This document shows positions 12,096 through 33,203 of a stretch of 64,000 nt of DNA, piece by piece. Within the stretch, counting starts at the first letter, position 1. Each line of letters begins with the position of its first letter. Origin of the DNA: Mycobacteroides immunogenum. Lineage in GTDB: Bacteria > Actinomycetota > Actinomycetes > Mycobacteriales > Mycobacteriaceae. Where the stretch lies: contig NZ_CP011530.1 of the NCBI RefSeq assembly GCF_001605725.1, positions 372,001 through 436,000 on the forward strand. Reading direction: 5' to 3'. The notes under the pieces were generated by a model. It worked only from the letters and a program-made list of their open reading frames with translations. It was not told where the DNA came from and ran no database searches. The position numbers were made by a program, and so were the translations under genes.

Positions 12096-12099
12096 CCTG

Positions 12100-14881: not shown

Positions 14882-14947
14882 ATCGCAATCATTGGCAACG
14901 CAATCCGTCACGTTGTGAGGGGCTCGGCCATACCGCAAGATGTGTGC

Positions 14948-16045: not shown

Positions 16046-16594
16046 GTGACCCTCTTCGAAATCGAAACCAGCGCCTTCTGCCCCGCATCCCCCGACGAGC
16101 TGTACGCCTTGGTCAGCGACCTCCCCGAGAGTGGTCGATGGAGTCCCGAATGCATTGGTGGACAGTGGATATCCGGCGAACCGGGCCAGGTTGGCGCCCG
16201 CTTCCGCGGAAACAACAACCGTGCCACCGATGTCGTTGCCTGGGCGCCCGTGGTGCGTGGAGGATGGCAGACGGAAAGTGAGATCGTCGCCGCGCAAGCG
16301 CCGACTCAGTTCAGCTGGTCCATCCTGAACCGTTCCGGCGAACTGCAAGAGAGTGTTTGGAGCTACTTTGTGGACCCGGCCGAGGGCGGATCGACCCTGC
16401 GGCACCACTACCGGATGGGCAAGCCCACCGAAGGCATCACCGAGATCATGTCGCACCTCGACGAAGAGGGTAAGCAGCGATTTGTCCGTGAATGGGGTGA
16501 CAAGCTCCGCGTCGATATGCAGGCCACGGTCGACGCGATCGCACGCATCACCGAGGAGGCCAATATCGCCCAGGAAGCTGGAGCAACCCAATGA
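16046..16594 (+). CDS. SRPBCC (START/Bet v1-like) family protein, first gene of operon A
   Basis: The 182-aa protein starts at GTG 16046 and has the helix-grip features of SRPBCC proteins: N-terminal ASPDELYALVSDLPESGRW and Trp/Arg-rich middle strands. Such proteins bind hydrophobic or aromatic ligands or act as cyclases/aromatases. In this operon it may handle an aromatic intermediate. It overlaps the ligase gene by 4 bases (ATGA). Its catalytic role is not predictable from sequence. Confidence 0.7.
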   Translation: MTLFEIETSAFCPASPDELYALVSDLPESGRWSPECIGGQWISGEPGQVGARFRGNNNRATDVVAWAPVVRGGWQTESEIVAAQAPTQFSWSILNRSGELQESVWSYFVDPAEGGSTLRHHYRMGKPTEGITEIMSHLDEEGKQRFVREWGDKLRVDMQATVDAIARITEEANIAQEAGATQ

Positions 16595-18156
16595 TACTGC
16601 AGCGCATAGGAAACCGTGGCATCAAGCTCGGCACGCTCTTCGAGCGCGCTGCCCGCCGGTACCCGGCCAACACCCTCACCCTGGACCACCGGCCGTCGTT
16701 GGCTCCGCAATTGGAGGGCACCGCGACCATCGCGGCGGTGGCAGCTGCCGTTGATGACATCGCGCGGCGGCTGCGTGCCGCCGGAGTTGTCCCCGGGGAG
16801 AAACTCGTCATCCACAAGTCGGACGGCTTCGACATCACGCTGGCGGCATGTGCCGCGGCGCGCGTGGGTGCGGTACCAGTGCTGTTGTCCCCCAAGCTGG
16901 ATGGCCAGACGGTGGCCACCCTGATCGCACGCGTCGGTAACCCGGCGCTGCTGACCGACGCGGCCAAGCTCGACGGAGAGTTGGCCGGTCAGTCCATCGC
17001 CGACATCACGTCACGCATCCTGCTCGCCGAGGGCGAGCACCCTCAGGCCGTGACGCTCTCGGGGTTGACGCCCGCCGCGCCGGCCCCCGCGGTCATCCCC
17101 AGCCCGCACGACCCCGCGCTCATTACGCACACCTCCGGCACCACCGGCGTGCCCAAGCTGGCCGTGCACACCAACTTCACCTTCGAGGCAAGGTACCGCC
17201 CGCAGGCCGCCGTCGCCGCGCTGGTGCGCCGGCGCGAACCCATCGTCATCCACGTTTCTTTCGTGCATTCCAGGCTGGTGACCGCACTGGCCATCGCGAT
17301 TCTGCGCGGTTTCCCGGTTGTGGTGCTGGTTGACGACGAGCCCGAGCACGCCGCGGAGATCTTCTTGCGCGTCAAGCCTGGAATCCTTGAGGCTCACCCG
17401 AACACGTTCATCAATTGGGAGGCGCTGGCCGAAGACCCGCGCCGCCCGCTGGCCTCGGTGAAGTACTTCAGCAGCACCTTCGACGCGATTCATCCGCGCA
17501 CGGTGCGCACGCTGCTGTCCGCCTCGCAGCGTCGGCGCCCGCTGTTCGGGCAGCTCTATGGCCAAAGCGAGGTCGGGCCCATTGTGGCCCGCGGTTTCAG
17601 CCGGTTCCGCTCCGCCGACTCCGACGGGCGGTGCGTCGGCTATCCGTTCCCGGGCATGACCGATGTGCGGATCGTGTCGCGTAACGGTCAGCCGCCGTCA
17701 CCGGATAACCCCGGTTACATCGAGGTACGCACCGACGGGCGGATTCGTACTTACCTGGGTGAGCAGGAGCGTTACGAGAAGCAGCTCGACGACGGCTGGT
17801 GGCGGATGGGCGATGTGGGCTACCGGACCCGCTGGGGCTGCATCCACCTGCTTGATCGCGAGGTCGATCTCATCGAGGGCTTCGGCAGCACCTTGGCGGC
17901 CGAGGATCGTTTGTTCCTGGCCGTCGATGAGCTCACCGAGGTGATCATCGTCTCCGGCCCTAATGGACTTGCCCAGCCCGTGGTGTGCACGAAAAACGAT
18001 GTGCCGCTCAACCGTAACGCCTGGGATGCGGCAGCAGCGCAGCTGCCGCCGATGGCGCCGCCGCTACAGCTGCGCCTTGATGAGCTTCCGCAGACGGCCA
18101 CCACGAAGATCAAGAGACTGGAACTGTCGGCACGTATCGGAGCGGGGGCCTTCTGA
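16591..18156 (+). CDS. Class I adenylate-forming enzyme (acyl-CoA ligase-like; possible CreM-type diazotase)
   Basis: The 521-aa protein has the ANL core motifs: THTSGTTGVPK near residues 179-189, YGQSEVGP, WWRMGDVGY, and a C-terminal TATTKIKR with the catalytic Lys near residue 505. It adenylates a carboxylate, or in the CreM subgroup activates nitrous acid to diazotise an aromatic amine. Because the same operon appears to encode nitrous acid biosynthesis, a diazotase role is attractive; an aryl-CoA or aryl-AMP ligase for 3-hydroxyanthranilate is the alternative. It is coupled to the preceding gene and linked to the next by an 11-codon frame. Confidence 0.7.
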   Translation: MILQRIGNRGIKLGTLFERAARRYPANTLTLDHRPSLAPQLEGTATIAAVAAAVDDIARRLRAAGVVPGEKLVIHKSDGFDITLAACAAARVGAVPVLLSPKLDGQTVATLIARVGNPALLTDAAKLDGELAGQSIADITSRILLAEGEHPQAVTLSGLTPAAPAPAVIPSPHDPALITHTSGTTGVPKLAVHTNFTFEARYRPQAAVAALVRRREPIVIHVSFVHSRLVTALAIAILRGFPVVVLVDDEPEHAAEIFLRVKPGILEAHPNTFINWEALAEDPRRPLASVKYFSSTFDAIHPRTVRTLLSASQRRRPLFGQLYGQSEVGPIVARGFSRFRSADSDGRCVGYPFPGMTDVRIVSRNGQPPSPDNPGYIEVRTDGRIRTYLGEQERYEKQLDDGWWRMGDVGYRTRWGCIHLLDREVDLIEGFGSTLAAEDRLFLAVDELTEVIIVSGPNGLAQPVVCTKNDVPLNRNAWDAAAAQLPPMAPPLQLRLDELPQTATTKIKRLELSARIGAGAF

Positions 18157-18191
18157 TGAGCCGCTTGCGCGAAGAGAATGGAGCCCGGTGA
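18156..18191 (+). CDS. 11-codon bridging mini-frame between ligase and monooxygenase genes
   Basis: An ATG overlapping the ligase stop (TGATG, 18154-18158) opens a frame of 11 sense codons whose TGA (18189-18191) overlaps the monooxygenase ATG. Both the mini-frame and the monooxygenase begin with ATGAGCCG and encode MSRL. It probably relays ribosomes between the two genes rather than making a functional peptide. Confidence 0.4.
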   Translation: MSRLREENGAR

Positions 18192-19396
18192 TGAGCCGGC
18201 TCATCGTGATCGGCGGCGGCATCGGCGGGTTAGCCGTCGCGTTGACCGCTGCCGCCTCGGGTAACGAGGTGGTGGTGCTGGAGCGGGCTCGTGAATTCGC
18301 TGAAATCGGGGCAGGAATCCAGCTTGCTCCCAACGGATTACATGCACTTGAGCTGTTGGGTCTGGGCGGCAAGATCGCAGACATCGGCGTGCGGGTGGAC
18401 TCGCTGCGGTTGTTCGACGCCACCGTCGACCGCTTGATCAACACCATGAGTCTGGGTGCGGATTACCAGCACCGATTCAACAGCCCCTACCTGGTTGTGC
18501 ATCGCGCGGAGCTGCACCGAATTCTGGTCAGTGCGTGCGAGGCGGATAGCCGCATCGAACTGCGGAGCCGCAGCGAGGTATTCGGATACCAACAGGATGC
18601 CGCGGGAGTGCGCGCTTTGCTTGCAGGCGGCAGCAGTGTCGAAGGTGACGGCCTCGTCGGAGCCGACGGCATCAATTCGACCATCCGGCGCACCCTGCTT
18701 GCCGATGGCGAACCTCGGGTCGCCGGGATAACCGTCTACCGCACCACGGTGCCCATCGACAAGGTCGGCCAGAGCCTGCAATCCAACTCGGTCACCTGGT
18801 GGACCGGGCCGGGATGCCACCTGGTGACCTATCCGATCGCCGGCGGTTCACTGCTCAACCTGGCGGCCAGCCGCACCGACGGTGCTACGGAGGCGTTCTC
18901 GGGAGTCTCGGTCAGTGAGGCCCGGGTGCTCCACGAGTTGGCACCGTTGCGCGGGACCGCTCGCAGCCTGCTCGAGCTGGGCCGGGACTGGAGGTCCTGG
19001 GCGCTCGTGGACCGTGACCCGGTGCGGCAGTGGTCCGACGGGCGCGTGGTGCTGCTGGGGGATGCGGCGCACCCCATGCTGCACTACGCGGCGCAGGGCG
19101 CCAGTCAGGCGCTCGAGGACGCTGTGGTGTTCGGCGCGCTGATCGGTGCCGACCCCGATCGCATCCCGGGCCGATTCGCCCGATTTGCCGAAGCGCGGCG
19201 CGACCGCACCGCAGATGTGACGCTGGCGGCCCGCGCCAGTATCGGCATCTGGCACGCCGCAGGGGACGCGGCCATGGAACGTAACGAAAAGCTGGGCGCC
19301 ATGCGTGATTCAGATCTGCATGAGGCGCTGGCCTGGATGCACGGCGACACCGACTTCGGGTTGGCCGCGGTGACGTCGACGGCGGGGGTGCGATAG
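18191..19396 (+). CDS. FAD-dependent aromatic monooxygenase (salicylate/3-hydroxybenzoate hydroxylase type)
   Basis: The 401-aa protein starts at ATG 18191 (MSRLIVIGGGIGG). It has the N-terminal FAD Rossmann motif GGGIGG, the later LLGDAAHPM motif near residue 295, and the length of class A flavoprotein hydroxylases. These use NAD(P)H and oxygen to hydroxylate phenolic acids ortho or para to OH. In the cremeomycin cluster a hydroxylase of this class (CreL) acts on the aminobenzoate core; here 3-hydroxyanthranilate or a diazo/deaminated derivative is a candidate substrate. It is coupled to the next gene by close spacing (stop, then ATG). Confidence 0.8.
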   Translation: MSRLIVIGGGIGGLAVALTAAASGNEVVVLERAREFAEIGAGIQLAPNGLHALELLGLGGKIADIGVRVDSLRLFDATVDRLINTMSLGADYQHRFNSPYLVVHRAELHRILVSACEADSRIELRSRSEVFGYQQDAAGVRALLAGGSSVEGDGLVGADGINSTIRRTLLADGEPRVAGITVYRTTVPIDKVGQSLQSNSVTWWTGPGCHLVTYPIAGGSLLNLAASRTDGATEAFSGVSVSEARVLHELAPLRGTARSLLELGRDWRSWALVDRDPVRQWSDGRVVLLGDAAHPMLHYAAQGASQALEDAVVFGALIGADPDRIPGRFARFAEARRDRTADVTLAARASIGIWHAAGDAAMERNEKLGAMRDSDLHEALAWMHGDTDFGLAAVTSTAGVR

Positions 19397-21325
19397 ATGT
19401 CGGATCATCAGATTTGCATCATCGGTGCGGGACCGCGCGGGCTGGCGGTGCTGGAACGCTTGTGCGCCAACGAACGTCACGCACCCAGCGCGGACAGGAT
19501 CATCGTGCACGTGGTGGACCCCTATTCGCCCGGTGCCGGATCGGTGTGGCGTACCAACCAGTCCTGGCATCTGTTGATGAACACTGTCGCGTCGCAGATC
19601 ACCGTCTTCACCGACGACAGCGTGGCCATCGATGGCCCCATCGAGCCCGGGCCGACGCTCTTCGAATGGGCGCAAAGCCTTGCCTTGTTGGGCGATCCGT
19701 CGCGTAGTGGTGAGAAGGCCATCGAAGAGGCGCGCACGTTGCGCTCGAACTCATACCCCACGCGCGCGCTCTACGGCCACTACCTCAGTGATAGTTTCGC
19801 TCGCGTTGTCGGTTGGGCGCCCGAGCATGTGACGGTTCGGGTGCACCGCTCTCGCGCGGTGGCGCTGGCCGATACTCATGGCGATATCGATGGCCCACAA
19901 GGCGTTCGGCTGGAGAACGGAACTCGCCTGCACGATCTCAAGGCCGTCATTCTCGCGGTCGGCCATGTGCCTGCGGGGCTGCGCCCGGGTGAGGCGCGCG
20001 CCGCCTCGCTCGCACGCATCCACGGGCTCACCTACGTCACGCCGGCCAATCCGGCCGATATTGACCTCTCGGCCATCAAGGCCGGTGAGCCCGTGGCCGT
20101 TCGCGGTTTGGGCCTGAACTTCTTCGATTACATGGCCTTGCTGACGGTGGGCCGGGGCGGGAAGTTCGTGCGGGACGGGGCGAGCCTGGTGTACCGCCCC
20201 TCGGGACAGGAACCCGTCCTGTACGCGAGTTCGCGCCGGGGCATTCCTTACCACGCGCGCGGCGAGAACCAGAAGGGATCCTCGGGTCGTTACTTCCCCC
20301 GGCTGCTCACGGTCGAGCGCATCGCCGGGCTGCGCGAGGAGCTGGGTGGGCTGCTGCAATTCCGCCGCGACCTTTGGCCGCTCATCGCCCGCGAGGTGGA
20401 ATGTGTCTATTACGAGCGGCATTTGACCCAGCGCGGCATACCCGCGCACGACTTCGCCGAGCGGTACCTCCATGCCCCGGAGACCGAGCTGTCCACGGTG
20501 CTTTCCGAGCACGATCTGCTTGATATCGTCTGGAAATGGGATGATCTCGACCGCCCGTGGGGCGAGCGTGAGTTCAGCGATCCCGAGGATTTCACCGCGT
20601 GGATTCTGGAGCATCTGCGTGCCGATGTCGTCATGGCACGGGAAGGCAATGTCGACGGGCCGGTGAAGGCCGCGCTGGACGTGTTGCGGGACTTGCGCAA
20701 TGAGATCCGGCTGGCGGTGGACCATGGCGGCCTGGATGGAAAGTCCTACCGGGACGAATTGGAGAGTTGGTACACGCCGCTGAACGCGTTCTTGTCGATC
20801 GGGCCTCCGGCCCAACGGATCGAGGAGATCATCGCGTTGGTGGAGGCGGGCGTCATGCATTTGGTGGGGCCGCGTATGCAGGTCCGATTCGACACTCACG
20901 ATCCCGCGGTGGTCATCGAATCGCCGCTGGTGCCAGGGTCGGTGGTGCGCACCCGCAGTCTCATCGAGGCACGTTTACACGAACCCGACCTGCGCCGCAG
21001 CAGCGATCCGCTGCTGGTGTTCCTGCAGGAGACCGGCCAGTGCCGACAGTACGAGATTCCCACGGACGACAATAACGCTTATCAGACAAAGGGATTGGCG
21101 GTCACCGAGCGCCCGTACCGGTTGATCGGTGCCGACGGGCGAGTGCATCCGCGCCGGTTCGCCTACGGCGTTCCCACCGAATCGGTGCACTGGGTAACCG
21201 CCGCCGGGATCAGACCCGGTGTGGATTCGGTGACACTCGGTGACGCCGATGCCATCGCGCGGGCCGCGTTGGCATCGGCACCCACGCCGGCTGCGGATGT
21301 GGGTGATCACGGGGTGCTGGTGTGA
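19397..21325 (+). CDS. CreE/FzmM-like flavin N-oxygenase (nitrosuccinate synthase candidate)
   Basis: The 642-aa protein starts immediately after the previous stop. It opens with an FAD-binding motif CIIGAGPRGLAVLERL, has a second dinucleotide-type glycine-rich segment (VRGLGLNFFDYMALL, near residue 240), and ends near ITAAG-like NAD(P) oxidase motifs (WVTAAGIRPGVDS). Size and motifs match the PF13454-type FAD/NAD(P) proteins to which CreE and FzmM belong; these oxidise aspartate to nitrosuccinate. The decisive context is the next gene, a CreD-type lyase overlapping by 4 bases. Assignment rests on pattern recognition; other N-oxygenases share the fold. Confidence 0.65.
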   Translation: MSDHQICIIGAGPRGLAVLERLCANERHAPSADRIIVHVVDPYSPGAGSVWRTNQSWHLLMNTVASQITVFTDDSVAIDGPIEPGPTLFEWAQSLALLGDPSRSGEKAIEEARTLRSNSYPTRALYGHYLSDSFARVVGWAPEHVTVRVHRSRAVALADTHGDIDGPQGVRLENGTRLHDLKAVILAVGHVPAGLRPGEARAASLARIHGLTYVTPANPADIDLSAIKAGEPVAVRGLGLNFFDYMALLTVGRGGKFVRDGASLVYRPSGQEPVLYASSRRGIPYHARGENQKGSSGRYFPRLLTVERIAGLREELGGLLQFRRDLWPLIAREVECVYYERHLTQRGIPAHDFAERYLHAPETELSTVLSEHDLLDIVWKWDDLDRPWGEREFSDPEDFTAWILEHLRADVVMAREGNVDGPVKAALDVLRDLRNEIRLAVDHGGLDGKSYRDELESWYTPLNAFLSIGPPAQRIEEIIALVEAGVMHLVGPRMQVRFDTHDPAVVIESPLVPGSVVRTRSLIEARLHEPDLRRSSDPLLVFLQETGQCRQYEIPTDDNNAYQTKGLAVTERPYRLIGADGRVHPRRFAYGVPTESVHWVTAAGIRPGVDSVTLGDADAIARAALASAPTPAADVGDHGVLV

Positions 21326-22704
21326 GCGGGTTCCTGGATGCCGGGCTGTTGTCGCCGGTCAGCGCGGGCACCGTCGCCGAGGCCGAACTGGCCGACGCGG
21401 CCTGGTTGCAGGCGATGCTCGACGCCGAGGTTGCGCTGGCCTGCGCGCAGGCCGATATCGGGGTGCTGCCGCGAGCGGCGGCTGATGTCATCGCCAAGGC
21501 GGCGGCTGCACACGATATCGACGTCCGCGCGGTAGCGCTCTCGGCGCGGGAGACGGCGAACCCTGTCGTCGGCCTGATCAAGGAGCTGACCCGGGTCGTG
21601 GGAGAGATCGAGCCGAGTGCCGCCGATTACGTCCACCGTGGATCGACCAGCCAGGACATTTTCGATACCGGGTCGATGATGGTGGCCAAGCGGGTACTGG
21701 AGTTGATCGCGGCGGACCTGGGCTATGTGGGCGCGGCGCTCGCCGAGCTGGCGGTGGAGCACCGTGGCACCGTGATGGCGGGCCGCACGCTGGCGGTGCA
21801 GGCCGTGCCGACGACGTTCGGGCTCAAGGTGTCCGGGTGGCGCGAGCTGATCTTGGAGGCGCGCGCGCGTGTACTCGGGGTGGCGGATGCGCTTCCCGTG
21901 TCGCTCGGGGGTGCTGCGGGAACGCTTGCCGGATATCTCGCGTACGCGGGACCGCAGGGCGCCGATCCCGCGGCGTTCGTCGAGAAACTGACCGCTGCAT
22001 TCGCCCGCACGACGGGTTTGGCCGTACCTGGACTGCCGTGGCATGCGCTACGCGCCCCGATCGCGGATATCGGCAGCATTGCCGCCTTTGTGACCGGGGC
22101 CCTCGGAAAGTTCGCGGTGGATGTGTTGACGTTGAGCCGCACCGAGATCGCGGAAGTGGCCGAGCCGGCCCCGCCGGGCCGGGGGGTGTCGTCGGCGATG
22201 CCACATAAAAGAAATCCGGTGTTGGCCACCATGATTCGCTCGGCGGCTCTGCAGGTTCCGGCGCTCAGCGTCGTGCTGACGCAGTCGCTGCTCAGCGAAG
22301 ACGAGCGATCGGCCGGTGGCTGGCACGCCGAATGGTTGGTGGTGCGGGAGTGCCTACGCCTTACCGGCGGCGCGGCCCAGACCGCCGTGGAGCTGAGCCG
22401 CGGCCTGCAGGTGCGTGCTGACCGCATGTCGGAGAACCTGGCCTTGCTCGGCGGGCAGCCTTCGGCGGAGCGGCTGTCGGCGGCACTGACCCCGCAGCTG
22501 GGCAAAGGCCCTGCCAAGGCCGTCGTCACCGAGGTGGTGGATGAGGCTGTCGCGCGTGGCCTGAGTTTGCGCGAGGCAAGTCTGGCCCGGCCCGAGATCA
22601 TCGCGTGGTTGAGTGCGGTCGAGATCGATGAACTGCTGGACCCTGCCACCTACACAGGAGCGGCAGGTCAGCTGGTTGCGGAGGCAATCGCGCCACGTTT
22701 CTGA
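21322..22704 (+). CDS. CreD-like nitrosuccinate lyase / carboxymuconate cycloisomerase-type lyase
   Basis: The 460-aa protein starts at GTG 21322 overlapping the previous stop. It belongs to the fumarase/aspartase superfamily: HRGSTSQDIFDT near residues 105-116 and the signature SSAMPHKRNP near residue 291. By sequence alone it could be called 3-carboxy-cis,cis-muconate cycloisomerase or adenylosuccinate lyase. Directly behind a CreE-like N-oxygenase it more likely releases nitrite and fumarate from nitrosuccinate. No other protocatechuate-pathway genes are nearby, which argues against cycloisomerase. It ends operon A. Confidence 0.65.
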   Translation: MSGFLDAGLLSPVSAGTVAEAELADAAWLQAMLDAEVALACAQADIGVLPRAAADVIAKAAAAHDIDVRAVALSARETANPVVGLIKELTRVVGEIEPSAADYVHRGSTSQDIFDTGSMMVAKRVLELIAADLGYVGAALAELAVEHRGTVMAGRTLAVQAVPTTFGLKVSGWRELILEARARVLGVADALPVSLGGAAGTLAGYLAYAGPQGADPAAFVEKLTAAFARTTGLAVPGLPWHALRAPIADIGSIAAFVTGALGKFAVDVLTLSRTEIAEVAEPAPPGRGVSSAMPHKRNPVLATMIRSAALQVPALSVVLTQSLLSEDERSAGGWHAEWLVVRECLRLTGGAAQTAVELSRGLQVRADRMSENLALLGGQPSAERLSAALTPQLGKGPAKAVVTEVVDEAVARGLSLREASLARPEIIAWLSAVEIDELLDPATYTGAAGQLVAEAIAPRF

Positions 22705-22744
22705 GAAGGCCACCTGCGTGAACTTCTGCTCAGCTTGATTCTTT

Positions 22745-22775
22745 GCGAACTGTTCGCGCGTAAGAGTCTTGACGG
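22745..22775. promoter_or_regulatory. Inverted repeat and TTGACGG box upstream of the cluster regulator
   Basis: GCGAAC-T-GTTCGC at 22745-22757 is a perfect 6-bp-arm palindrome. CTTGACGG at 22768-22775 matches the repeat found before operon A. Both lie in the 120-bp gap between the lyase and regulator genes and may be regulator or -35 sites. Confidence 0.4.
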
Positions 22776-22824
22776 TGCCATACCCCGCCCTTACCGTTGC
22801 CACGCACACACGGCAGACGGGTAG

Positions 22825-24684
22825 TTGGGATTGACTGACATACAGGTGAGTGGGGCGCGCGAAGGGGTTCCGAGTGTTGGCCACTCGGCGCTCTCGGTGC
22901 TCCGGTTACTGGCCTCCGGAACGGCTCCTGACGTATTCGAGGCCCGGCTCAAAGAGATGGCCCGCGAATCCTCGCCGCCCTGGAGCGCGACGGATCTGCA
23001 CCGGGCCCGCGGATACGCCGAGCGCATCTACGGTCTCATCGAGGGCCAGAACCAGCGCGAGGCACGATTGTCCAACTTGGTGGGCGTCGGTATCGATCTG
23101 CTCGGCTGCCATGATCTCGACGAGGCATCCACCACCCTGGTCAAACGGGCGCGGATCATGCTCGACGCCGATTTCTCGTTCATTTCGGTGCGCGATGATT
23201 CGGGGACCGAGGTACGACACCACGTGCGCTACGTCGATGGGCCCACCACGGCGATCAATCATGGACTCTTCTTTCCCATCGGCGACGACGTTGGGCTGGT
23301 GAGCCTGTATCGCCCGGGGCAGGGCCCGGTCTGGACCGCGGATTACCCGTCCGACACCAGGTTCAGCAGAGCCAGCCACGGTGATGCCGCCATGCGCTCC
23401 GAAGGCGTACACAGCCTGATGGTCATGCCGATGGAGCATGAGGGACAGCATTTCGGGAACCTCTATGTCGGGTCGCGCACGGTGCGCAGCTTCAGCCCCG
23501 CCGAGAGATCCTTGTTCGCGAGCCTGTGCTCGTTCGCGGGTATCGCGCTGGCGCGGGCAAGCGAGTTCTCCAGTAACACAGCACAAATCTGTGCCCTGGA
23601 ACGTCGCCTCGAGTTGCGGACCGTCCTGCTGGACACCGGTGCCGGTCCGGCCGGTATGGACGGTTTCGTCCTCACCGCGGGAGAGCAGCTGGGCGTCGCG
23701 ATGCGTGTGACGGGGCATGACGGCTCCGAGATCGCCTCCTATAAATGGAAACCCGAGGCGCGCGGCATCCTGACCACGGCGCTGACCATCGGTGATGACT
23801 ACCATGGCGAGTTATCCGTGGCCAGCCTCGATGATGGTCTTGTTTCGTTGTACCCGTTGAAGATTCAGGATCTGGCCACCACTGCGGCGGTGGTGATGTG
23901 TGGCGACAACAGGATGTCGCTGTCGGTGTCGCAGCTGCGCAATGACCTGCTGCATGACGTGCTGGATTATCGCCAGCGCGACAGCAGGCTGGTCCAGATA
24001 TACGCCCGCCGTTTGGCTTTGGATCTCAACCAGCCGCATGTCGTCGTCATCGTGCGGCCAGAACGTGGTGGGCTGGACCGGGCATCACTGTGGTCGGCTT
24101 CGTTCGCCTCGCGAGTGGGCGGGTTGCGGGCCACCCAGGACGAGGTGGTGGTGCTACTCATTCCGGGAACGGATCCGGGCCGCACCGCCCAGACGGTGTG
24201 GGACGAGACCACCGCACACCTGCGGATGCCGGTCACGGTGTCGTCGGCCGGGCCGTCGGATCGGATCGAGTCCATCGAAGAGACCTATCAAGACGCGATG
24301 CGATGTCTGGACGCGATGAGCGCGTTGGGTGCTCTCGGCACAGCAGCCGCCGCCAACGAACTGGGATTCTTGGGGGTGCTGCTCTCGCGCCACCAGGATG
24401 TGGAGGGTTTCGTCAGATCGATGGTGGGCCCCGTCATCGACTACGACGAGGACCGTGACACCGATCTGCTCCAGACGCTCGACGTGTATTTCACCGTCGG
24501 CGCCAGCCCCACCCGGGCCGCGAAAATCCTTCACACCCACCCCAATACCGTGGTCCGCCGCCTCGATCGGGTGAACGAGCTACTTGGCGAAGGGTGGCAG
24601 GATGCCGAGCGGCTCCTGGACACGCAGCTCGCCATCAAGCTGTGGAAAGTGAGAGGCTCGCTGCTCACTCGCCAGACCGGGTGA
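22825..24684 (+). CDS. GAF-domain PucR/CdaR-type transcriptional regulator
   Basis: The 619-aa protein has an N-terminal helical region, a GAF-like sensor (about residues 85-255, with HGLFFPIGDDVGLVSLY and LMVMPMEHEGQHFGNLYVGS), a middle dimerisation region, and a C-terminal PucR-type helix-turn-helix (HPNTVVRRLDRVNELLG, about residues 573-589). Such regulators activate catabolic or biosynthetic operons in response to small aromatic or other ligands. It lies between operons A and B and probably controls both. The start is uncertain: TTG 22825 is the first in frame and GTG 22846 is an alternative. Its last 105 bases overlap the transposase-like gene on the other strand. Confidence 0.75.
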   Translation: MGLTDIQVSGAREGVPSVGHSALSVLRLLASGTAPDVFEARLKEMARESSPPWSATDLHRARGYAERIYGLIEGQNQREARLSNLVGVGIDLLGCHDLDEASTTLVKRARIMLDADFSFISVRDDSGTEVRHHVRYVDGPTTAINHGLFFPIGDDVGLVSLYRPGQGPVWTADYPSDTRFSRASHGDAAMRSEGVHSLMVMPMEHEGQHFGNLYVGSRTVRSFSPAERSLFASLCSFAGIALARASEFSSNTAQICALERRLELRTVLLDTGAGPAGMDGFVLTAGEQLGVAMRVTGHDGSEIASYKWKPEARGILTTALTIGDDYHGELSVASLDDGLVSLYPLKIQDLATTAAVVMCGDNRMSLSVSQLRNDLLHDVLDYRQRDSRLVQIYARRLALDLNQPHVVVIVRPERGGLDRASLWSASFASRVGGLRATQDEVVVLLIPGTDPGRTAQTVWDETTAHLRMPVTVSSAGPSDRIESIEETYQDAMRCLDAMSALGALGTAAAANELGFLGVLLSRHQDVEGFVRSMVGPVIDYDEDRDTDLLQTLDVYFTVGASPTRAAKILHTHPNTVVRRLDRVNELLGEGWQDAERLLDTQLAIKLWKVRGSLLTRQTG

Positions 24685-25866: not shown

Positions 25867-26155
25867 GCTGACGCACCTCGATGAATTAGCGGATGTTCAA
25901 TGTCGACCCAAGAATGGGCGAGATCTCGGCTGAGGAACAGGTATTGGCGCCACACAAAGTGACGGACTATGCGGGTGCCCCGCTACACCCACCTTGGTGG
26001 ACTAATGCAAGATGACTGATTGGTAAACAACCCGCTGACCTGCTAAACGTTCGTTCCGGCCTGAGTGATTAGGTGGCGCAATAGGTGGTCAGAGGGGTCG
26101 ACCTGACGGATTGTCTCCGAACTGACGAATTGAATTCGCGATTGTTTGGCGGGCG
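25867..26155. promoter_or_regulatory. 289-bp divergent control region before operon B
   Basis: This gap separates the leftward transposase-like gene and rightward operon B. It contains GTGACGGACT at 25959, and CTGACGGATTG (26103-26113) and CTGACGAATTG (26122-26132), two near-identical 11-mers 19 bp apart. These resemble the repeats before operon A. The mid region (about 26005-26060) is AT-richer. No gene is seen. Confidence 0.45.
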
Positions 26156-27805
26156 ATGCCGCATCCCGAAGATAGAGGGGTGATCACCCGGCGTGCGTTG
26201 CTAGGAACGACTTTTGCATTGGCTGGCGCGGCGGCGCTCGCCGGTTGCGGCTCCCAGGCTCGCGCGGCGGACCCGCAAGTTTCGGTGACTGCGGGTGCGA
26301 TTCGTGGTGAGACCACCGGCACGGTGCACGTGTTCCGCGGCATCCCCTATGCACAGCCGCCGACGGGAGAGAATCGGTTCCGTTCTCCCCGGCCGGTGAA
26401 TCCGTGGGGAGATACCTTGAACGCCACCCGGTTCGGGTCCGACTTCATTCAGCCCGCCGGTGGTGATCCGGTGCTCCAGGAAGACGCCCTGTACGCCAAT
26501 GTATGGACACCGTCGGTGGACGGGGGCGCCAAGCTGCCCGTGATCGTCTACATCCACGGCGGCGGCTGGTCCCGTGGTGCGGGCAGCCTTCCTGTCTATG
26601 ACGGGGCCGCTCTTGCCGAACGCGCCGGTGCGGTCGTCGTCAACTTCAACTACCGGCTGGGCGCCTTCGGGTTCTGCGGCCATCCGGCTCTCGAAGACCC
26701 GGTCACCGGGCTGCACACCAACTGGGGTCTGCAAGACCAGATCGCGTTGTTGCACTGGGTCAGTGAGAACGCCAGGGCATTCGGCGGCGATCCCGGGAAC
26801 ATCACGCTGGTGGGGACCTCGGCGGGTGGTGCGAGTACCTGGCAGTTATCGCTGCATCCGCAGACACGGCCGCTGCTGCGCCGGATCATCAGCATCAGCC
26901 AGGCGCATGTGTGGAGCCCGTACCTGAGTTTGACCCCGGAGGACGCCACCGCCACGTTCGATGCGCTGGCCGCCGCCCAGGGGGTCGCGGTGAAGAATCT
27001 GAAGGGCGTGCCGGCGGATCGGATTCGCGACTGGTGGGTCGCGCAGTTCGCGCAGCCAAGGTCGCAGCGGGTGGTCCGCAGCGGTCGCCAGTACCGCGGG
27101 CCGGTGCTGGATCCGGTGCTGCTTCCGGCTTTCGATGTCAATCAGCCACTGCCGGATATCCCCACCATCTCGATCTACACCAGCACCGAGGGTGCGTTCT
27201 TCACCGGACCCAACGCACCCGAACCGCAGGCGCAGCCCACCGACGCCGCGTCTCTGCACGCCGCGTTCCGGGACATCCTGGAGCAGGGGGTGCCGTCGGT
27301 GTCTGATGCGGTGGTCGCCGATGCCGTCGCTCTGTATACGGATTCAGCGAAGCAGGATGGGCGCCCCGCCGACCCGCTGTCGTTGTGGACGGAACTGTGG
27401 GGAGATGCTCTGATCCGCCACGACATCCTCGCCTTCACCCGCCGCGCGGCTGCCGAACGGCGTGCGCCGCTGTATCTGATGGAGTACGCGCATCCGGTCA
27501 AGCCGCCGTACTTCGGTGTGCCGCACGAGTCGACATCGCCGTTCCTGTTCGGTACGTACGCACATCCGGCCAATGTGGCCAAGTTCGGCGATGGGCCTAA
27601 GGAACAGGAAACCTCGGCAGCCTTCATGGATTTGGTGGCGGAGTTCGTACACGGCAAGCCGCCGGCCAGTCCCCGGCTCCCGCAATGGAATCCAGTCGAC
27701 CATGACCTGCGCCAGCTCGTGCTGCGCGACGGATCCGGGACCATCACCGCACCTACCAAGACCACGCAGCTGGGCGTTCTCGACGCAGTCCAGTGGGGCA
27801 AGTGA
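26156..27805 (+). CDS. Type-B carboxylesterase, exported lipoprotein-like, first gene of operon B
   Basis: The 549-aa protein has a Tat-like TRR motif, hydrophobic core and lipobox LAGC in its first 35 residues, so it is probably exported and lipid-anchored. The mature enzyme has FRGIPYAQPPTGENRF, the oxyanion-hole segment YIHGGGW and nucleophile motif GTSAGGAS near residues 223-230, all typical of carboxylesterase family B. GTG 26180 would also give a good signal peptide. Its position heading a 3-hydroxyanthranilate operon suggests ester or amide processing of the product outside the membrane, which is inference. Confidence 0.75.
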   Translation: MPHPEDRGVITRRALLGTTFALAGAAALAGCGSQARAADPQVSVTAGAIRGETTGTVHVFRGIPYAQPPTGENRFRSPRPVNPWGDTLNATRFGSDFIQPAGGDPVLQEDALYANVWTPSVDGGAKLPVIVYIHGGGWSRGAGSLPVYDGAALAERAGAVVVNFNYRLGAFGFCGHPALEDPVTGLHTNWGLQDQIALLHWVSENARAFGGDPGNITLVGTSAGGASTWQLSLHPQTRPLLRRIISISQAHVWSPYLSLTPEDATATFDALAAAQGVAVKNLKGVPADRIRDWWVAQFAQPRSQRVVRSGRQYRGPVLDPVLLPAFDVNQPLPDIPTISIYTSTEGAFFTGPNAPEPQAQPTDAASLHAAFRDILEQGVPSVSDAVVADAVALYTDSAKQDGRPADPLSLWTELWGDALIRHDILAFTRRAAAERRAPLYLMEYAHPVKPPYFGVPHESTSPFLFGTYAHPANVAKFGDGPKEQETSAAFMDLVAEFVHGKPPASPRLPQWNPVDHDLRQLVLRDGSGTITAPTKTTQLGVLDAVQWGK

Positions 27806-27836
27806 ATCAGAAATCAAACGAATGGAGATCACGGGA

Positions 27837-29003
27837 ATGACTGCGCCATCACTGCTGCTCGATACCGGACGCGCTGTGCAACAGCCGGTCTGGGAGAACC
27901 ACGTACACCTGGAACGGGTGCGTTCGGAACTCAGCGAGCTGCCCGCACTGGTCGGGGCCGACGAGATTCGGACCCTGCGCACGCTGCTGAGCACCGTCGC
28001 GCAGGGCCGCGCCACCATCATCCAGGCGGGCGACTGCGCCGAGGATCCGCAGGAGTCGACCGACGCGCACGTGGCTCGCAAGGTCGCGCTGCTCAATGTC
28101 CTGGCCGGCGCCATGCGGATGAAGACGTACCGGCCGGTCCTGCGCGTCGGACGTATCGGCGGTCAGTACGCCAAGCCGCGATCCAAGCCCACCGAGACCG
28201 TCGACGGTGTCGAGCTGGCTTCTTTCCGTGGGCATCTCGTCAACAGCCCGCAGCCCCATCCGGTGCATCGCCGCGCCAACCCGGACCGGATGCTGGCCGG
28301 ATACTGGGCGGCGAACCGGGTGATGGGTCACCTGGGGTGGCGGGTGCCTTCCTCGCTGTCGGTCATCGAGCCGCCGGTCTGGACATCGCATGAGGCGCTG
28401 CTGCTCGACTACGAGGTGCCCCAATTGCGCCGCGATGGGGAGAACCGCATGGTGCTCACCTCCACCCACTGGCCCTGGATCGGCGACCGGACCCGGCATC
28501 TGGATGGGCCGCACGTCGAATTGTTCTCCCGCATTGCCAATCCCGTGGCGTGCAAGGTGGGCCCGTCGATGACTGTCGAGGATCTGCTTGCCTTGTGCGA
28601 GAAGCTGGACCCGGAGCGTGAGAGCGGCAGGCTGACGTTGATCGCCCGGCTGGGTGCCGCGGCGGTGCGCGACAAACTTCCCGAACTGGTCGCCGCCGTG
28701 CGTGATTCCGGACATCCGGTGATCTGGCTGTGCGATCCGCTGCACGCCAACACGGTGTCGACGGATTCGGGGTACAAGACGCGTCACGTGCAGACGGCCA
28801 TCGATGAGGTGCGCGGCTTCCGTGAGGTTCTCGCGGATGCGGATGTGCATGCCGGCGGGCTGCACCTCGAGGCCACACCGGACGATGTGGTCGAGTGCGT
28901 CTTCGACGGCTCGCAGAATCACGAAGTCGGTGAGCGCTATTCGACACTGTGCGACCCGCGCCTCAACACCGCTCAGGCCACTGAGGTGGTGTCCGCATGG
29001 TAG
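27837..29003 (+). CDS. phzC: PhzC-type class II DAHP synthase
   Basis: The 388-aa enzyme has class II DAHP synthase motifs: IIQAGDCAED near residue 60, RVGRIGGQYAKPRS near residue 103, and C-terminal GGLHLEATPDDVVEC. It condenses PEP and erythrose-4-phosphate, the first shikimate step. Dedicated copies of this short type (about 390 residues, shorter than primary-metabolism class II enzymes) boost chorismate supply in phenazine clusters. ATG 27837 has GGAG 9 bases upstream; ATG 27822 is an alternative. Its stop overlaps the next gene by 7 bases. Confidence 0.85.
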   Translation: MTAPSLLLDTGRAVQQPVWENHVHLERVRSELSELPALVGADEIRTLRTLLSTVAQGRATIIQAGDCAEDPQESTDAHVARKVALLNVLAGAMRMKTYRPVLRVGRIGGQYAKPRSKPTETVDGVELASFRGHLVNSPQPHPVHRRANPDRMLAGYWAANRVMGHLGWRVPSSLSVIEPPVWTSHEALLLDYEVPQLRRDGENRMVLTSTHWPWIGDRTRHLDGPHVELFSRIANPVACKVGPSMTVEDLLALCEKLDPERESGRLTLIARLGAAAVRDKLPELVAAVRDSGHPVIWLCDPLHANTVSTDSGYKTRHVQTAIDEVRGFREVLADADVHAGGLHLEATPDDVVECVFDGSQNHEVGERYSTLCDPRLNTAQATEVVSAW

Positions 29004-29755
29004 CGGTGGTCACCGGCGCGGGTGGCGGAGTCGGTTCCCGCGTGGTCACCGCGCTGGCGCGCCGCGACGAGCGCGTGGTTGCGGTGGACATCGATGAGGT
29101 GGCCATCAAGCAGCTGGTGGAATACGCCGCCGATGAGGGGCTGGATATCGTCGGGCAGGTCCTCGACATCACCGACGACACCGCGGTGGCGGTAGGTGTG
29201 GCCGATATCGAATCCCGGATAGGTCCCATCACGTCACTGGTCAACGGGGCAGGTGTGCTCAGAACCGGTGCGGCGGTCGAATTTTCCGATGCCGACTGGG
29301 CACGCACCTTCGACGTGAATGTGCGTGCGCCCTTTGTGCTGAGCCGTGAGGCGGCGCGGTACATGATTCCGCGCCGTGCGGGCGGCATCGTGACCATCGC
29401 GTCCAACGCCGCGTTGGTGGCCCGCAAGGGCATGACGGCGTATGCGGCATCCAAGGCGGCCGCCAACGCCTTCACCAAGAGCCTCGGCCTGGAGCTCGCC
29501 GAGTACGGAATCCGTTGTAACGTGGTGGCACCCGGATCCACGGACACCCCCATGCTGCGGGCGATGCTCGGTGATTCCTCCGATGCCGGCCTGGTCGCCG
29601 GAAGCCTTGACGACTACAAGCCCGGGATTCCCTTGGGGCGTGTTGCCCAGCCACAGCACATCGCCGATGCCGTGGCCTTCCTGCTCTCCGACCAAGCTGC
29701 CCACATCACCATGCACACGCTGGTGGTTGATGGCGGCGCGACACTAGGGGTTTGA
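28997..29755 (+). CDS. EntA/DhbA-like short-chain dehydrogenase (2,3-dihydro-3-hydroxyanthranilate dehydrogenase candidate)
   Basis: The 252-aa SDR has NAD motif TGAGGGVG at residues 6-13 and active-site YAASK (Tyr149, Lys153), with a Ser about 13 residues earlier. It resembles 2,3-dihydro-2,3-dihydroxybenzoate dehydrogenases. Sandwiched between PhzC and PhzD/PhzE, its likely substrate is the amino analogue DHHA, which it would aromatise to 3-hydroxyanthranilate. This replaces the PhzF isomerisation used for phenazines. It overlaps PhzC and lies 3 bases before PhzD. Confidence 0.75.
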   Translation: MVAVVTGAGGGVGSRVVTALARRDERVVAVDIDEVAIKQLVEYAADEGLDIVGQVLDITDDTAVAVGVADIESRIGPITSLVNGAGVLRTGAAVEFSDADWARTFDVNVRAPFVLSREAARYMIPRRAGGIVTIASNAALVARKGMTAYAASKAAANAFTKSLGLELAEYGIRCNVVAPGSTDTPMLRAMLGDSSDAGLVAGSLDDYKPGIPLGRVAQPQHIADAVAFLLSDQAAHITMHTLVVDGGATLGV

Positions 29756-29758
29756 CCA

Positions 29759-30394
29759 ATGACCACCGTGACACGCGGTATTCCGATCATCGCCGAGTAC
29801 GAGCTGCCGACTGCCGATCTGCTCCCGGCCAACACGGCGAACTGGCAGATCGACCCAGAGCGCGCGGTGCTGCTCATTCATGACATGCAGCGCTATTTCC
29901 TGGCACCGCTGCCTGTTTCGCTTCGTGCCGAGCTGGTGAGCAATGTAGCGGCCATCCGTGATCGCAGCGTGGCCGCGGGCATCCCGATCGCCTACACCGC
30001 ACAGCCCGGCAGCATGACTCAGGAACAGCGCGGCTTGCTCAAGGATTTCTGGGGCCCGGGGATGCGTGTTGACGAGGAACATCGTCAGATCGTCGACCCG
30101 ATCGCTCCGGACGCGGGGGACTGGGTGTTCACGAAATGGCGCTACAGCGCGTTTCACCGTTCCGCACTGCTGGAACGGATGCACGCGGCCGGGCGCGACC
30201 AACTGGTGATCTGTGGCGTCTACGCGCATGTTGGCGTGTTGATGACTGCGGTAGATGCCTTCACCCACGATATCGAGACCTTCTTGGTCGCCGATGCGAT
30301 CGCGGACTTTGATGACGAATCACACTGGATGGCTTTGGAATACGCGGCTCGGCGGTGCGCCGTGCTGACCGTCACGGATGAGGTGCTGACATGA
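29759..30394 (+). CDS. phzD: PhzD-type isochorismatase (ADIC hydrolase)
   Basis: The 211-aa enzyme has [10 protein letters not shown] with the catalytic Asp at residue 42 and TKWRYSAF with Lys at 126, both four positions after the Asp38 and Lys122 of characterised Phz[13 protein letters not shown] replaces the CysxxxCys-containing segment of other cysteine hydrolase relatives, as in PhzD. It hydrolyses the vinyl ether of 2-amino-2-deoxyisochorismate, giving DHHA and pyruvate. It overlaps the PhzE gene by 4 bases. Confidence 0.9.
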
Positions 30395-32247
30395 GCGATC
30401 TGCTGGGGAGGGTACTGGCCGGACAAGCCGGACCGTTCGCACTGCTGTACCGTCCGGAATCCGGTGCGCCCGATAGTGTCGACGTCTTCACCGGTGCGGT
30501 GACCGCCGTCGACCGCATCGCCGACCTGCCGTTGCGGGATGAGCACCTGGGGCATGACCTGTTGGCGCTGGTGCCGTACCGGCAGATCGTCGAGCGGGGA
30601 TTTGTGGCTCCCGATGACGGTGCTCCGCTGTTGGCGCTCGCGATCGAACAGCAGGACAAGGCACCGCTGTCGCAGGTGCTGGATCGCATCCCGGAACACC
30701 CGGTAGTGGTGGGCCACAGCGATTTCGACATAGACGACGAGGAGTACGCGCGGTTGGCGGCGGGGATCATCTCCGAGGAGATCGGCCAGGGTGCCGGCGC
30801 GAATTTTGTGTTGAAGCGCAACCTGCTGGTCCAGCTGCACGACTACTCGATCAATACCGCACTGACGCTCTTCCGCAGGCTGCTGGAGCGTGAGAAGGGT
30901 GCCTACTGGACTTTCCTGGTGAACACCGGGGAGCAGGTCTTCATCGGTGCCACGCCCGAACGCCATATCAGCGTGCAGGATTCGTTGGCGGTGATGAACC
31001 CGATCAGCGGCACCTACCGGTACGAGGCCAACGGCCCCAGCCTGGACGCCGTCATGGAATTCCTTGCCGACACCAAGGAATCCGATGAGCTCTACATGGT
31101 GGTGGACGAGGAACTGAAGATGATGGCTCGTATCTGCCCCGAAGGTGGTCAGGTACAAGGGCCGTATCTCAAAGAGATGGCCCGGTTGGCGCATACCGAG
31201 TATCTGATTTCAGGTATCACGGATCGGGACCCGCGAGAGATTTTGGCCGAGACCATGTTCGCACCCACCGTGACCGGGAGCCCGCTGGAGAACGCGTGCC
31301 GCGTCATCCAGCGGTACGAACCCGCGGGGCGCCGGTATTACAGTGGCGTCGCGGCGCTGGTCAGCACCGATGCGACCGGCAGGCGGCAGCTCGATTCCGC
31401 GATTCTGATTCGCACCGCCGAGATCTCCCCCGATGGAGCCCTGGCGGCCGGTACCGGCGCCACCATCGTTCGGCATTCCAATCCGGCCAGCGAGGCGGCC
31501 GAAACACGCAGCAAGGCAGCGGGTTTGCTGTCGGTACTGACGACGCGACGTGAGCTGCGTAGCCATCCCCGGGTCACCGAGGCTCTGGCCAGTCGCAACA
31601 CCGGCATCGGAACCTTCTGGCTGGGTCATGGGTCGGTGGAGAGTGCCGTGAATCTGGCGGGCCGCACCGCGCTGGTGGTCGACGCCGAGGACACATTTAC
31701 CTCGATGATCGGATTGCAGCTGCGGGCCCTGGGATTGCGGGTCGATATCCGCAGGTTTGATGAGGATATCCACCTCGGATCACACGACTTCTTGGTGTTG
31801 GGACCTGGTCCGGGCGATCCGACGGCGATTGATGTGCCGAAGATCGCGGCGCTTACCGCGTTGACGAAGACCGCGCTGACACAGCGTGTTCCGTTCCTGT
31901 CCATCTGCCTGAGTCATCAGGTGCTGTGCCGGCAACTGGGCCTACCCATCAGGCGCAGGGAGCAGCCGAATCAGGGTGTGCAGCGGCAGATCGACCTGTT
32001 CGGCACCGAGCGGTATGTCGGCTTCTACAACACCTTCGCCGCGGTGACCGGCGGAGAGTGGGTGGACACCGCGGCGGGCCGGGTGCAGATCAGTTCGGAT
32101 GCCGCGTCGGGTGAGGTGCATGCGTTGCGCGCGAAGCGATTCGCATCGATCCAGTTCCACGCCGAATCCATTCTGACCCGGGACGGTGTCGGGATTTTCG
32201 GGGAGCTGTTGACTCCGCTGGCGACGGGGGTCCCGGTACTAGCATGA
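30391..32247 (+). CDS. phzE: PhzE-type ADIC synthase (chorismate aminase fused to glutamine amidotransferase)
   Basis: The 618-aa protein fuses an N-terminal chorismate-binding (TrpE-like) domain to a C-terminal class I glutamine amidotransferase domain, the PhzE arrangement. The amidotransferase nucleophile is Cys506 in LSICLSHQ, with His-x-Glu in FHAES near residue 590. The chorismate domain includes [11 protein letters not shown] and [10 protein letters not shown]. It converts chorismate and glutamine into 2-amino-2-deoxyisochorismate. It overlaps both neighbours by 4 bases. An anthranilate synthase is less likely because a PhzD gene is directly coupled. Confidence 0.9.
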
Positions 32248-33203
32248 CAAGTGTGCGCATCGACATACACGCTCACCTGTGGTCCGACGAGTACCTTTCG
32301 CTGCTGGACAGTTATGGGCGTCCCGGCACCGATGTCCATCGTGGTCTGGGTGCTGGGGCCACGCGGGACGATCTGGACGGTCGTTTCGCGTTGATGGATG
32401 AGGCGGGCGTTGACCTGCAGATCCTTACCGCGACACCGGCATCGCCGCATTTCGAGGACGAGACGGCTGCCGTGGCAAGTGCGCGGTTTATCAACGACGA
32501 GTACGCGAAGCTCTCCCGTGAGTATCCGGAGCGATTCCGGGCGCTGGCGTCACTACCGCTGCCGCACATCCCGGCCGCGTTGGACGAACTGGCGCGGGCG
32601 ATGGACGAGCTGGACATGTTTGGCGCGTCGATCACCACCTCGGTACTCGGTCGATCCATCGCCGACCCGATCTTCGACCCGCTCTATGAGGAGCTGAACC
32701 GAAGGGGTGCAATCCTTTTCGTGCACCCGGCTGGGTGCGGCGCGGAATCGTCGCTGATTACCGATCACTCGCTGACCTGGTCGATCGGAGCTCCGATCGA
32801 AGACACCGTCGCGATCATGCACCTCATTGTGGCGGGCATTCCGTCGCGGTATCCGGACATGAAGATCGTGACCTGTCATTTGGGTGGAGCGTTGCCGATG
32901 GTGTTGGAGCGTGCGGACCGGCAGGTCACCGAATGGGAAGCGACGCAGTGCCCTGAAGCGCCCAAGGATGCGGCCCGCCGGCTTTGGTATGACACCGTGG
33001 GGCATGACCACACGCCCGCGTTGCGAGCGGCCGTCGAGTCCCTGGGTGCCGACCGGCTGGTATTCGGTTCGGACTTCCCGTACCAAGGCGGTGCGCGGTA
33101 CGTCAGCTCGGCGACCTACATCGAGGATGGTGTGTCTGCCGAAGATGCGTCGTTGATTCTCGACCACAACGGCGCGGAGTTATTGGGGTTGAGGAGCCCT
33201 TAA
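32244..33203 (+). CDS. ACMSD-type metal-dependent amidohydrolase/decarboxylase
   Basis: The 319-aa protein has the amidohydrolase-2 metal motifs: N-terminal DIHAH (residues 7-11), FVHPAG, TCHLGGALP and GSDFPY near residue 276. Family members decarboxylate aromatic or muconate acids (ACMSD, gamma-resorcylate decarboxylase). Relatives in benzoxazole clusters (NatAM, BomN) close a benzoxazole from two 3-hydroxyanthranilate units. At the end of a 3-hydroxyanthranilate operon either decarboxylation or ring closure is plausible. The start overlaps the PhzE stop; a terminator follows. Confidence 0.75.
   Translation: MTSVRIDIHAHLWSDEYLSLLDSYGRPGTDVHRGLGAGATRDDLDGRFALMDEAGVDLQILTATPASPHFEDETAAVASARFINDEYAKLSREYPERFRALASLPLPHIPAALDELARAMDELDMFGASITTSVLGRSIADPIFDPLYEELNRRGAILFVHPAGCGAESSLITDHSLTWSIGAPIEDTVAIMHLIVAGIPSRYPDMKIVTCHLGGALPMVLERADRQVTEWEATQCPEAPKDAARRLWYDTVGHDHTPALRAAVESLGADRLVFGSDFPYQGGARYVSSATYIEDGVSAEDASLILDHNGAELLGLRSP

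Follow-up and report, generated by a model that had tools for sequence, protein, structure and literature searches.

The core of cremeomycin is derived from 3-amino-4-hydroxybenzoic acid (3,4-AHBA). In the cremeomycin (cre) cluster, CreE and CreD supply nitrous acid for the ATP-dependent diazotisation of an aminohydroxybenzoic acid (PMC11705231), and the ava and cma clusters for avenalumate and p-coumarate likewise combine the aspartate-nitrosuccinate (ANS) pathway with a diazotase of the ANL superfamily (PMC10777205). For limazepine, recombinant Lim5 and Lim6 were used to test the route from chorismate via 2,3-dihydro-3-hydroxyanthranilate (DHHA) to 3-hydroxyanthranilate (3-HAA) (PMC5958127); limazepines are pyrrolobenzodiazepines, and the abstract of that paper makes no mention of a nitrous acid branch. 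In 2022, CreD-, CreE- and CreM-like genes joined to a 3-HAA pathway were described in the penzonemycin (pzm) cluster of Streptomyces sp. SCSIO 40020 (PMC9323291). Here we analyse a stretch of 64,000 nucleotides from Mycobacteroides immunogenum (assembly GCF_001605725.1, contig NZ_CP011530.1, positions 372,001 to 436,000; hereafter the window), in which an insert of about 22 kb carries two operons that resemble pzm. An initial annotation had proposed that they form an undescribed cluster joining nitrous acid to 3-HAA biosynthesis. Since the pzm paper already joins these pathways, the combination is a known kind, and related clusters are common; for Mycobacteroides, our literature searches returned, among the papers listed and judged by their listings, no such cluster and no work pairing the genus with nitrosuccinate. 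A search for literature linking 3-HAA with nitrous acid and diazo chemistry returned the pzm paper and one review, which repeats the pzm proposal and states that further data are required (PMC11705231). What is new here is the setting, an insert between tRNA-Ser and an aminotransferase gene, and the variant, which includes a 3-hydroxybenzoate-6-hydroxylase-like enzyme and a decarboxylase-like amidohydrolase.

The host genome is a single contig of 5.57 Mb. An ORF (open reading frame) listing together with Pfam and NCBIfam profile scans recovered every gene that had been assigned to the two operons, at the expected coordinates. Operon A (16046-22704) encodes an SRPBCC protein, an AMP-forming ligase, an FAD-dependent aromatic hydroxylase, CreE and CreD, and operon B (27822-33203) encodes a 3-deoxy-D-arabino-heptulosonate 7-phosphate (DAHP) synthase, a short-chain dehydrogenase/reductase (SDR), PhzD, PhzE and an amidohydrolase-2; within each operon adjacent genes overlap or almost abut. 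The window shares with the annotated pzm cluster CreD, CreE, a CreM-like ligase, an SRPBCC protein (pzm19), a quinone reductase (pzm13), DAHP synthase, an anthranilate-synthase-like protein, an isochorismatase and a dehydrogenase, as well as a gene annotated as a transposase (pzm10) between those for DAHP synthase and CreD (PMC9323291). According to the same annotation, a second ligase, an acetolactate synthase, an N-acetyltransferase, an F420 oxidoreductase and a VOC protein are found only in pzm, whereas the FAD hydroxylase, amidohydrolase-2, a carboxylesterase and a PucR regulator are found only in the window; the first three of these pzm genes, regarded as tailoring genes, had no counterpart among the scanned insert ORFs. 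The core of the pzm family (ANS genes, Pzm18-like ligase, SRPBCC gene and 3-HAA operon) is complete in the window. The pzm-like cluster of S. halstedii NRRL ISP-5068 (L048 with L134), which is not the published pzm strain and was matched to pzm by gene content and order, encodes a ligase 66%, a CreE 63%, a CreD 59% and a PhzE 59% identical to those of the window. In contrast to cremeomycin, the amine would be chorismate-derived 3-HAA, and the scanned insert ORFs include no member of the 3,4-AHBA synthase families.

We favour, with a probability of about 0.7, the reading that the locus is a horizontally acquired penzonemycin-type insert whose predicted products make 3-HAA, probably hydroxylate its ring, and diazotise it with enzymatic nitrite. 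The observations behind this reading are gene identity, conserved residues, synteny and gene association. CreD scores 666 bits against the NCBIfam nitrosuccinate lyase model NF052556 (cut-off 650), is 60.2% identical to the solved CreD 5xny (504 bits) and keeps 16 of 16 named functional residues, including S302, R341, E49/H118 and the SSxMPxKRNP loop (residues as listed in PMC13411527). Cycloisomerases match it far less well (NF006554, 360 bits against a cut-off of 595; 1re5, 253 bits). The only solved relative found for CreE was the aspartate N-hydroxylase 8cp2, and 12 of its 13 named residues, which include aspartate- and flavin-site positions, are kept, the sole change being at R597, which is described as a tunnel-entrance residue (PMC10404684). 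The initial annotation had asked whether the two proteins might instead group with unrelated oxidases and true cycloisomerases, which is not what the profiles and structures indicate. An ANS pathway to nitrous acid is well supported by these comparisons of predicted proteins. A locus in another genus of the same family (L004) has adjacent genes for CreE (69%), CreD (60%, above the cut-off) and a PucR-like protein (39%). Twelve further CreD homologues with a CreE neighbour (49-54%; L005-L016) score 533-623 bits, below the NCBIfam cut-off of 650, which may exclude genuine nitrosuccinate lyases.

Operon B holds PhzE-like, PhzD-like and EntA-like SDR genes together, the gene set of the chorismate/DHHA route, and the EntA-type structure 2fwm matches the SDR at 175 bits. 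Its DAHP synthase scores 384 bits against TIGR01358, under the cut-off of 615. The best solved relative of the hydroxylase in operon A is 4bjy (183 bits), deposited as a probable salicylate monooxygenase. Those of the amidohydrolase are ACMSD and the carboxyvanillate and resorcylate decarboxylases (up to 93 bits), and its metal-type residues D7, H9, H11, H161, H212 and D277 are kept in at least 97% of 39 aligned rows, the window included. The amidohydrolase is present in all eight Mycobacteroides-type genomes described below, at 88-92% identity to the window in the others, yet is no regular neighbour of the ligase elsewhere, and therefore probably tailors the product of the Mycobacteroides branch. 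A scan of the neighbours of distant amidohydrolase relatives (L182, L183) for catabolic context was uninformative.

A scan of genome contigs gave 384 relatives of the ligase, of which the best 80 were analysed, so that close relatives are over-represented in the counts, and several loci are cut by contig ends. Within about 10 kb on either side of the ligase, where the contig permits, we found SRPBCC at 74 of the 80 loci, quinone reductase at 62, CreE at 46, the hydroxylase at 41 and a nitrate-reductase-like protein at 30. Extra flanks were added for 20 loci, mostly those with a nearby PhzE match, which favours detection of the 3-HAA operon and CreE there. With these flanks included, a quinone-reductase-like homologue is present at 67 loci, CreE or CreD at 50, a likely nitrite source of either kind (see below) at 64 and the 3-HAA operon at 40; the full set of CreE/CreD, 3-HAA operon, hydroxylase and SRPBCC occurs at 22, comprising six Mycobacteroides-type and 16 other actinomycete loci. 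A phylum-wide ligase search was positive in 5 of 396 genomes, too sparse a sample, and we used instead 246 genomes of one Streptomyces genus, counting places rather than genomes (G914 has two copies), dropping 4 of 95 ligase hits as partial and taking only CreD matches of at least 600 bits (79 places). Of the 21 places where the ligase is at least 60% identical to that of the window, 17 have CreD no more than 5 kb away. Within 30 kb, CreD was found at 14 of 26 places for ligases of 50-59% identity and at 3 of 5 for those of 40-45%; at 46-49%, the level at which Pzm18 is reported to resemble CreM (48%; PMC9323291), it was found at 4 of 39 and was not seen near the ligase at the other 35.

After 110 ligases plus outgroups had been thinned to 70 rows, a tree, for which the tool warned of long outgroup branches, placed the window ligase in a 41-row clade (support 100/99) that also includes the two ligases of the S. 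halstedii pzm-like cluster. The AvaA6-like ligases of the ava/cma type form a separate, distant clade, and the window ligase scores 72.9 bits against the AvaA6 model NF058622, far from its cut-off of 975; over 296 genomes of the phylum this model gave two sub-cut-off matches in one genome, used as outgroups only. We also sought a CreM orthologue among ligase relatives (40-52% identity) encoded near CreD, as well as among 3,4-AHBA-type clusters with type II dehydroquinate synthase (DHQS-II), and identified none: five of the six DHQS-linked clusters examined have AvaA6-like ligases and the sixth (L208) has neither an AvaA6-like nor a window-type ligase. The closest match among the best 80 of 384 is from M. 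franklinii (96%). A shorter protein (425 aa, 94% identical) of Mycobacteroides abscessus subsp. abscessus, a species with no record among those 80 loci, is named 'fatty-acid-CoA ligase FadD', a name that is probably wrong. In six loci, including the pzm-like cluster, the first ligase is accompanied by another from the same clade, which shares 58-60% identity with that of the window (L048, L047, L055, L059, L060, L064). In several related clusters (L079, L083, L088, L027, L046, L067) a KAS III gene and an arylamine N-acetyltransferase-like gene lie near phzE, pointing to acylated amine products.

At the 30 loci with a nitrate-reductase-like protein, NarK-, NasC- and NirB-like proteins are all present in 29. 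At 14 of the 80 loci no CreE or CreD was seen and the nitrate-reductase-like protein lies by the ligase, usually with a NarK-like transporter and a NirB-like flavoprotein (L028, L042, L044, L056, L061, L068, L069, L072, L073, L080, L081, L086, L090, L091). The best NCBIfam matches of this set are nitrate reductase NasC, NarU/NarK and NirB, all three under cut-off. Since the NirB-like protein aligns only to positions 1-467 of the 794-position model, it may assist the nitrate reductase without reducing nitrite itself. Diazotisation may alternatively draw its nitrite from the reduction of nitrate. A more ambitious interpretation, which we regard as possible but would not expect to hold in full, is that actinomycetes possess a large class of clusters, mostly unassigned and with the window as its branch in Mycobacteroides, in which a fixed quinone reductase/SRPBCC/ligase cassette would nitrosate aromatic amines with nitrite either from CreE/CreD or from a nitrate transporter and nitrate reductase, the Mycobacteroides product being an unprecedented hydroxylated, decarboxylated compound of the diazohydroquinone type.

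The gap between tRNA-Ser(gga) and the aminotransferase gene aat is 22,548 bp in the window. By comparison, tRNA-Ser(gga) lies 187-218 bp from aat, with no cluster gene between, in all nine fetched relatives that lack the cluster there, drawn from 20 other genomes of the genus searched for aat. The cluster is syntenic in eight Mycobacteroides-type genomes, the window and seven others, with genes 78-97% identical; the loci so called are the window, L017-L022 with L127-L132, and G369, three being named Mycobacteroides and three Mycobacterium sp. As the eight were found through their ligase or amidohydrolase, their agreement shows that gene order is kept, not how frequent the insert is in Mycobacteroides. 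Because of this synteny and the recurrence of the full set at 16 other actinomycete loci, the gene set is no chance assembly. We read the insert as old and maintained by descent. Being located 5' of the tRNA gene, it is unlike a classic 3'-end integration.

Inside the insert, the 3' end of an IS701-like ORF overlaps the 3' end of pucR by 105 bp. The ORF occupies the same position in the Mycobacteroides-type loci (93-97% identical where fully aligned), and homologues of 33-38% identity occur in other actinomycete clusters, convergent with a PucR gene in several of them. All 33 aligned rows, some of which are the same gene twice, lack Asp in the stretch that we take to be the usual first catalytic motif, so the ORF may be domesticated, perhaps as a catalytically dead DNA-binding protein; a repeat scan and a search with a guessed inverted-repeat pattern gave no convincing terminal repeats. 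At the right end of the insert, a DUF222/HNH ORF (33280-34581) is 71-80% identical where fully aligned and has no match in two Mycobacteroides-type stretches (L130, L185); it is probably a separate insertion or mobile ORF.

In the proposed pathway, PhzC, PhzE, PhzD and the SDR would lead from chorismate to 3-HAA, CreE would convert L-aspartate to nitrosuccinate, CreD would release nitrous acid from the latter, and the Pzm18-like ligase would diazotise an aromatic amine using ATP and nitrite. Sequence, conserved residues and gene association give good support to this outline, already drawn in the initial annotation, and the pzm paper proposes the same logic (PMC9323291); we infer ligase activity, the order of steps, the site of hydroxylation, decarboxylation and the product. 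Several known diazotases accept anilines hydroxylated at an ortho or para position (PMC11705231). 3-HAA carries a hydroxyl ortho to its amine, which is the likelier diazotisation site in the window cluster, and a hydroxyl in this position would stabilise an o-diazoquinone. Family membership suggests two further steps: the hydroxylase, of the 3-hydroxybenzoate/salicylate type, would probably add a ring hydroxyl, at C6 by analogy, and 6-hydroxylation would leave the carboxylate between amino and hydroxyl groups, an arrangement that would suit decarboxylation by a resorcylate-type amidohydrolase. The SRPBCC and quinone-reductase-like proteins would act at or near diazotisation, and the MFS (major facilitator superfamily) protein may export the product, which may be a diazo compound, a hydrazone, a deaminated phenol or a phenoxazinone.

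A product without an N-N bond would result if diazotisation served deamination. In the ava/cma pathways, loss of the diazo group is brought about by an NADPH enzyme (PMC10777205), and in the window a hydride could replace it, perhaps through the quinone-reductase-like protein, a relative of which stands beside the ligase at the 67 loci mentioned above, to give a phenol or quinone. However, AvaA7 is grouped with NADPH-dependent sugar epimerases (PMC10777205), so the window protein, of the medium-chain dehydrogenase/reductase (MDR) family, is probably a different kind of enzyme, and the penzonemycins, assigned to a related cluster, retain the N-N bond (PMC9323291); we consider deamination improbable, if the most serious competitor. 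In a phenoxazinone-type route, the diazo-forming enzymes would oxidise an o-aminophenol to an o-quinoneimine, which would then couple to a phenoxazinone; the crexazone authors have proposed such an oxidation (PMC11429834), and 3-HAA is an o-aminophenol. Their proposal concerns a 3,4-AHBA cluster, however, and a passage search of the paper did not find the terms SRPBCC, amidohydrolase or 3-hydroxyanthranilate; we consider such a route very unlikely here. Nataxazole-type enzymes (NatL2/NatAM) offer the comparison for a benzoxazole-type chemistry, in which the ligase and amidohydrolase would couple 3-HAA units and nitrite would be used in another step. The cluster does have a 3-HAA operon and an ANL ligase, and the start of its amidohydrolase gene overlaps the phzE stop, but the amidohydrolase resembles decarboxylases and the ligase relatives accompany CreE/CreD or the nitrate-reductase-like set rather than an amidohydrolase, so we give this explanation hardly more than an outside chance. 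Lastly, PhzC/D/E-like genes are common to phenazine pathways, but a pathway to a phenazine or a simple 3-HAA pigment, next to unrelated CreE/CreD genes, is scarcely credible, given the EntA-like SDR within operon B and the recurrence of CreE/CreD with the 3-HAA operon across genera. No member of the PhzF family was seen among the scanned insert ORFs, and the PhzA/B profile PF03284 matched neither this genome nor any control genome.

Several points weigh against the penzonemycin-type reading. For pzm, too, the pathway was proposed on bioinformatic grounds (PMC9323291, PMC11705231), and ligase activity in the clade of the window ligase is suggested by sequence and gene association. The tree contains no CreM sequence, and the 'CreM-type' label of the initial annotation draws on gene association and on a clade shared with ligases from the pzm-like cluster. 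No nitrite source was seen in the available stretch at 16 of the 80 ligase loci, eight of which have the 3-HAA operon; a source was likewise not seen at seven of the 57 loci that span 21.5 kb or more. Some profile scores are close to or below thresholds: CreD comes within about 11 bits of the cut-off for the muconate cycloisomerase PcaB (TIGR02426, 344 against 356 bits), the SDR falls 5.5 bits short of that of TIGR04316 (294.5 against 300), and the hydroxylase reaches 378 bits against NF006021 (cut-off 459). Finally, the amidohydrolase is not a constant partner of the ligase elsewhere, with 28-31% matches at 4 of the 80 ligase loci and no match in 14 extended non-mycobacterial ligase flanks.

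The features of the insert are listed in Table 1. The quinone-reductase-like, SRPBCC, MFS, PucR-type, IS701-like and carboxylesterase genes are additional to those of the initial annotation. Operon A is followed by the PucR-type regulator, the IS701-like ORF on the other strand, the carboxylesterase and operon B. For the hydroxylase the start at 18191 is likelier than 17963, and for the DAHP synthase 27822 is likelier than 27516. The quinone-reductase-like protein scores 145 bits against NCBIfam quinone_pig3, under the cut-off of 297. In six of six Mycobacteroides-type loci compared, homologues of the MFS transporter (83-90% identical) and of the esterase-like protein (78-87%) are present, the latter having no match in locus L022. 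Carboxylesterase homologues of at least 40% identity occur at 14 of the 80 ligase loci, six of them Mycobacteroides-type.

Table 1. Predicted features of the insert in the window and its left border
Feature	Position	Strand	Evidence or remark
tRNA-Ser(gga)	12099..12185	-	ARAGORN; left border of insert
MFS transporter, candidate exporter	12191..13405	-	Pfam PF07690, 127 bits; within insert
Esterase-like protein	13487..14881	+	Pfam PF00756; insert gene
Quinone-reductase-like MDR dehydrogenase	14915..15922	+	Pfam ADH_N/ADH_zinc_N; precedes operon A
SRPBCC (polyketide_cyc2) protein	16046..16594	+	Pfam PF10604; near-constant ligase partner
AMP-forming ligase, probable ATP-dependent arylamine diazotase (Pzm18-like; predicted)	16591..18156	+	Pfam PF00501, tree, CreD proximity
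FAD aromatic hydroxylase, 3-hydroxybenzoate 6-monooxygenase-like	18191..19396	+	NF006021; 4bjy
CreE, predicted L-aspartate N-hydroxylase (to nitrosuccinate)	19397..21325	+	8cp2, 637 bits; 56.7% identity
CreD, predicted nitrosuccinate lyase (to nitrous acid)	21322..22704	+	NF052556, 666 bits; 5xny, 504 bits
GAF/PucR-type transcriptional regulator	22825..24684	+	Pfam HTH_30, GAF, GGDEF_2
IS701-transposase-like ORF	24580..25866	-	NF033540, 221 bits (above cut-off 150)
Carboxylesterase, twin-Arg/lipoprotein-like start	26156..27805	+	Pfam PF00135, 285 bits; upstream of DAHP synthase gene
Class II DAHP synthase (PhzC-like)	27822..29003	+	Pfam PF01474, 420 bits
EntA-like SDR, probable DHHA dehydrogenase (to 3-HAA)	28997..29755	+	TIGR04316, 294.5 bits; 2fwm, 175 bits
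PhzD-like isochorismatase (to DHHA)	29759..30394	+	3r77, 311 bits; PhzD 1nf9, 306 bits
PhzE-like 2-amino-2-desoxyisochorismate (ADIC) synthase (synthase and amidotransferase)	30391..32247	+	3r74, 648 bits over residues 3-608
Amidohydrolase-2, probable metal-dependent decarboxylase	32244..33203	+	Start overlaps phzE stop; solved-structure relatives

The Mycobacteroides-type genomes, of a group known mainly for opportunistic infection, thus contain an apparently complete predicted pathway for nitrous acid formation and diazotisation, and its gene order is kept in all eight genomes found to carry the cluster. The diazotase-like clade to which the ligase belongs is testable with an obvious substrate, 3-HAA. 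Moreover, pzm is not a one-off: since the full gene set is common to 22 of the 80 loci, a single product assignment would help to explain many orphan clusters, and the variant in this new host group is surrounded by a large class of related clusters that are as yet unassigned.

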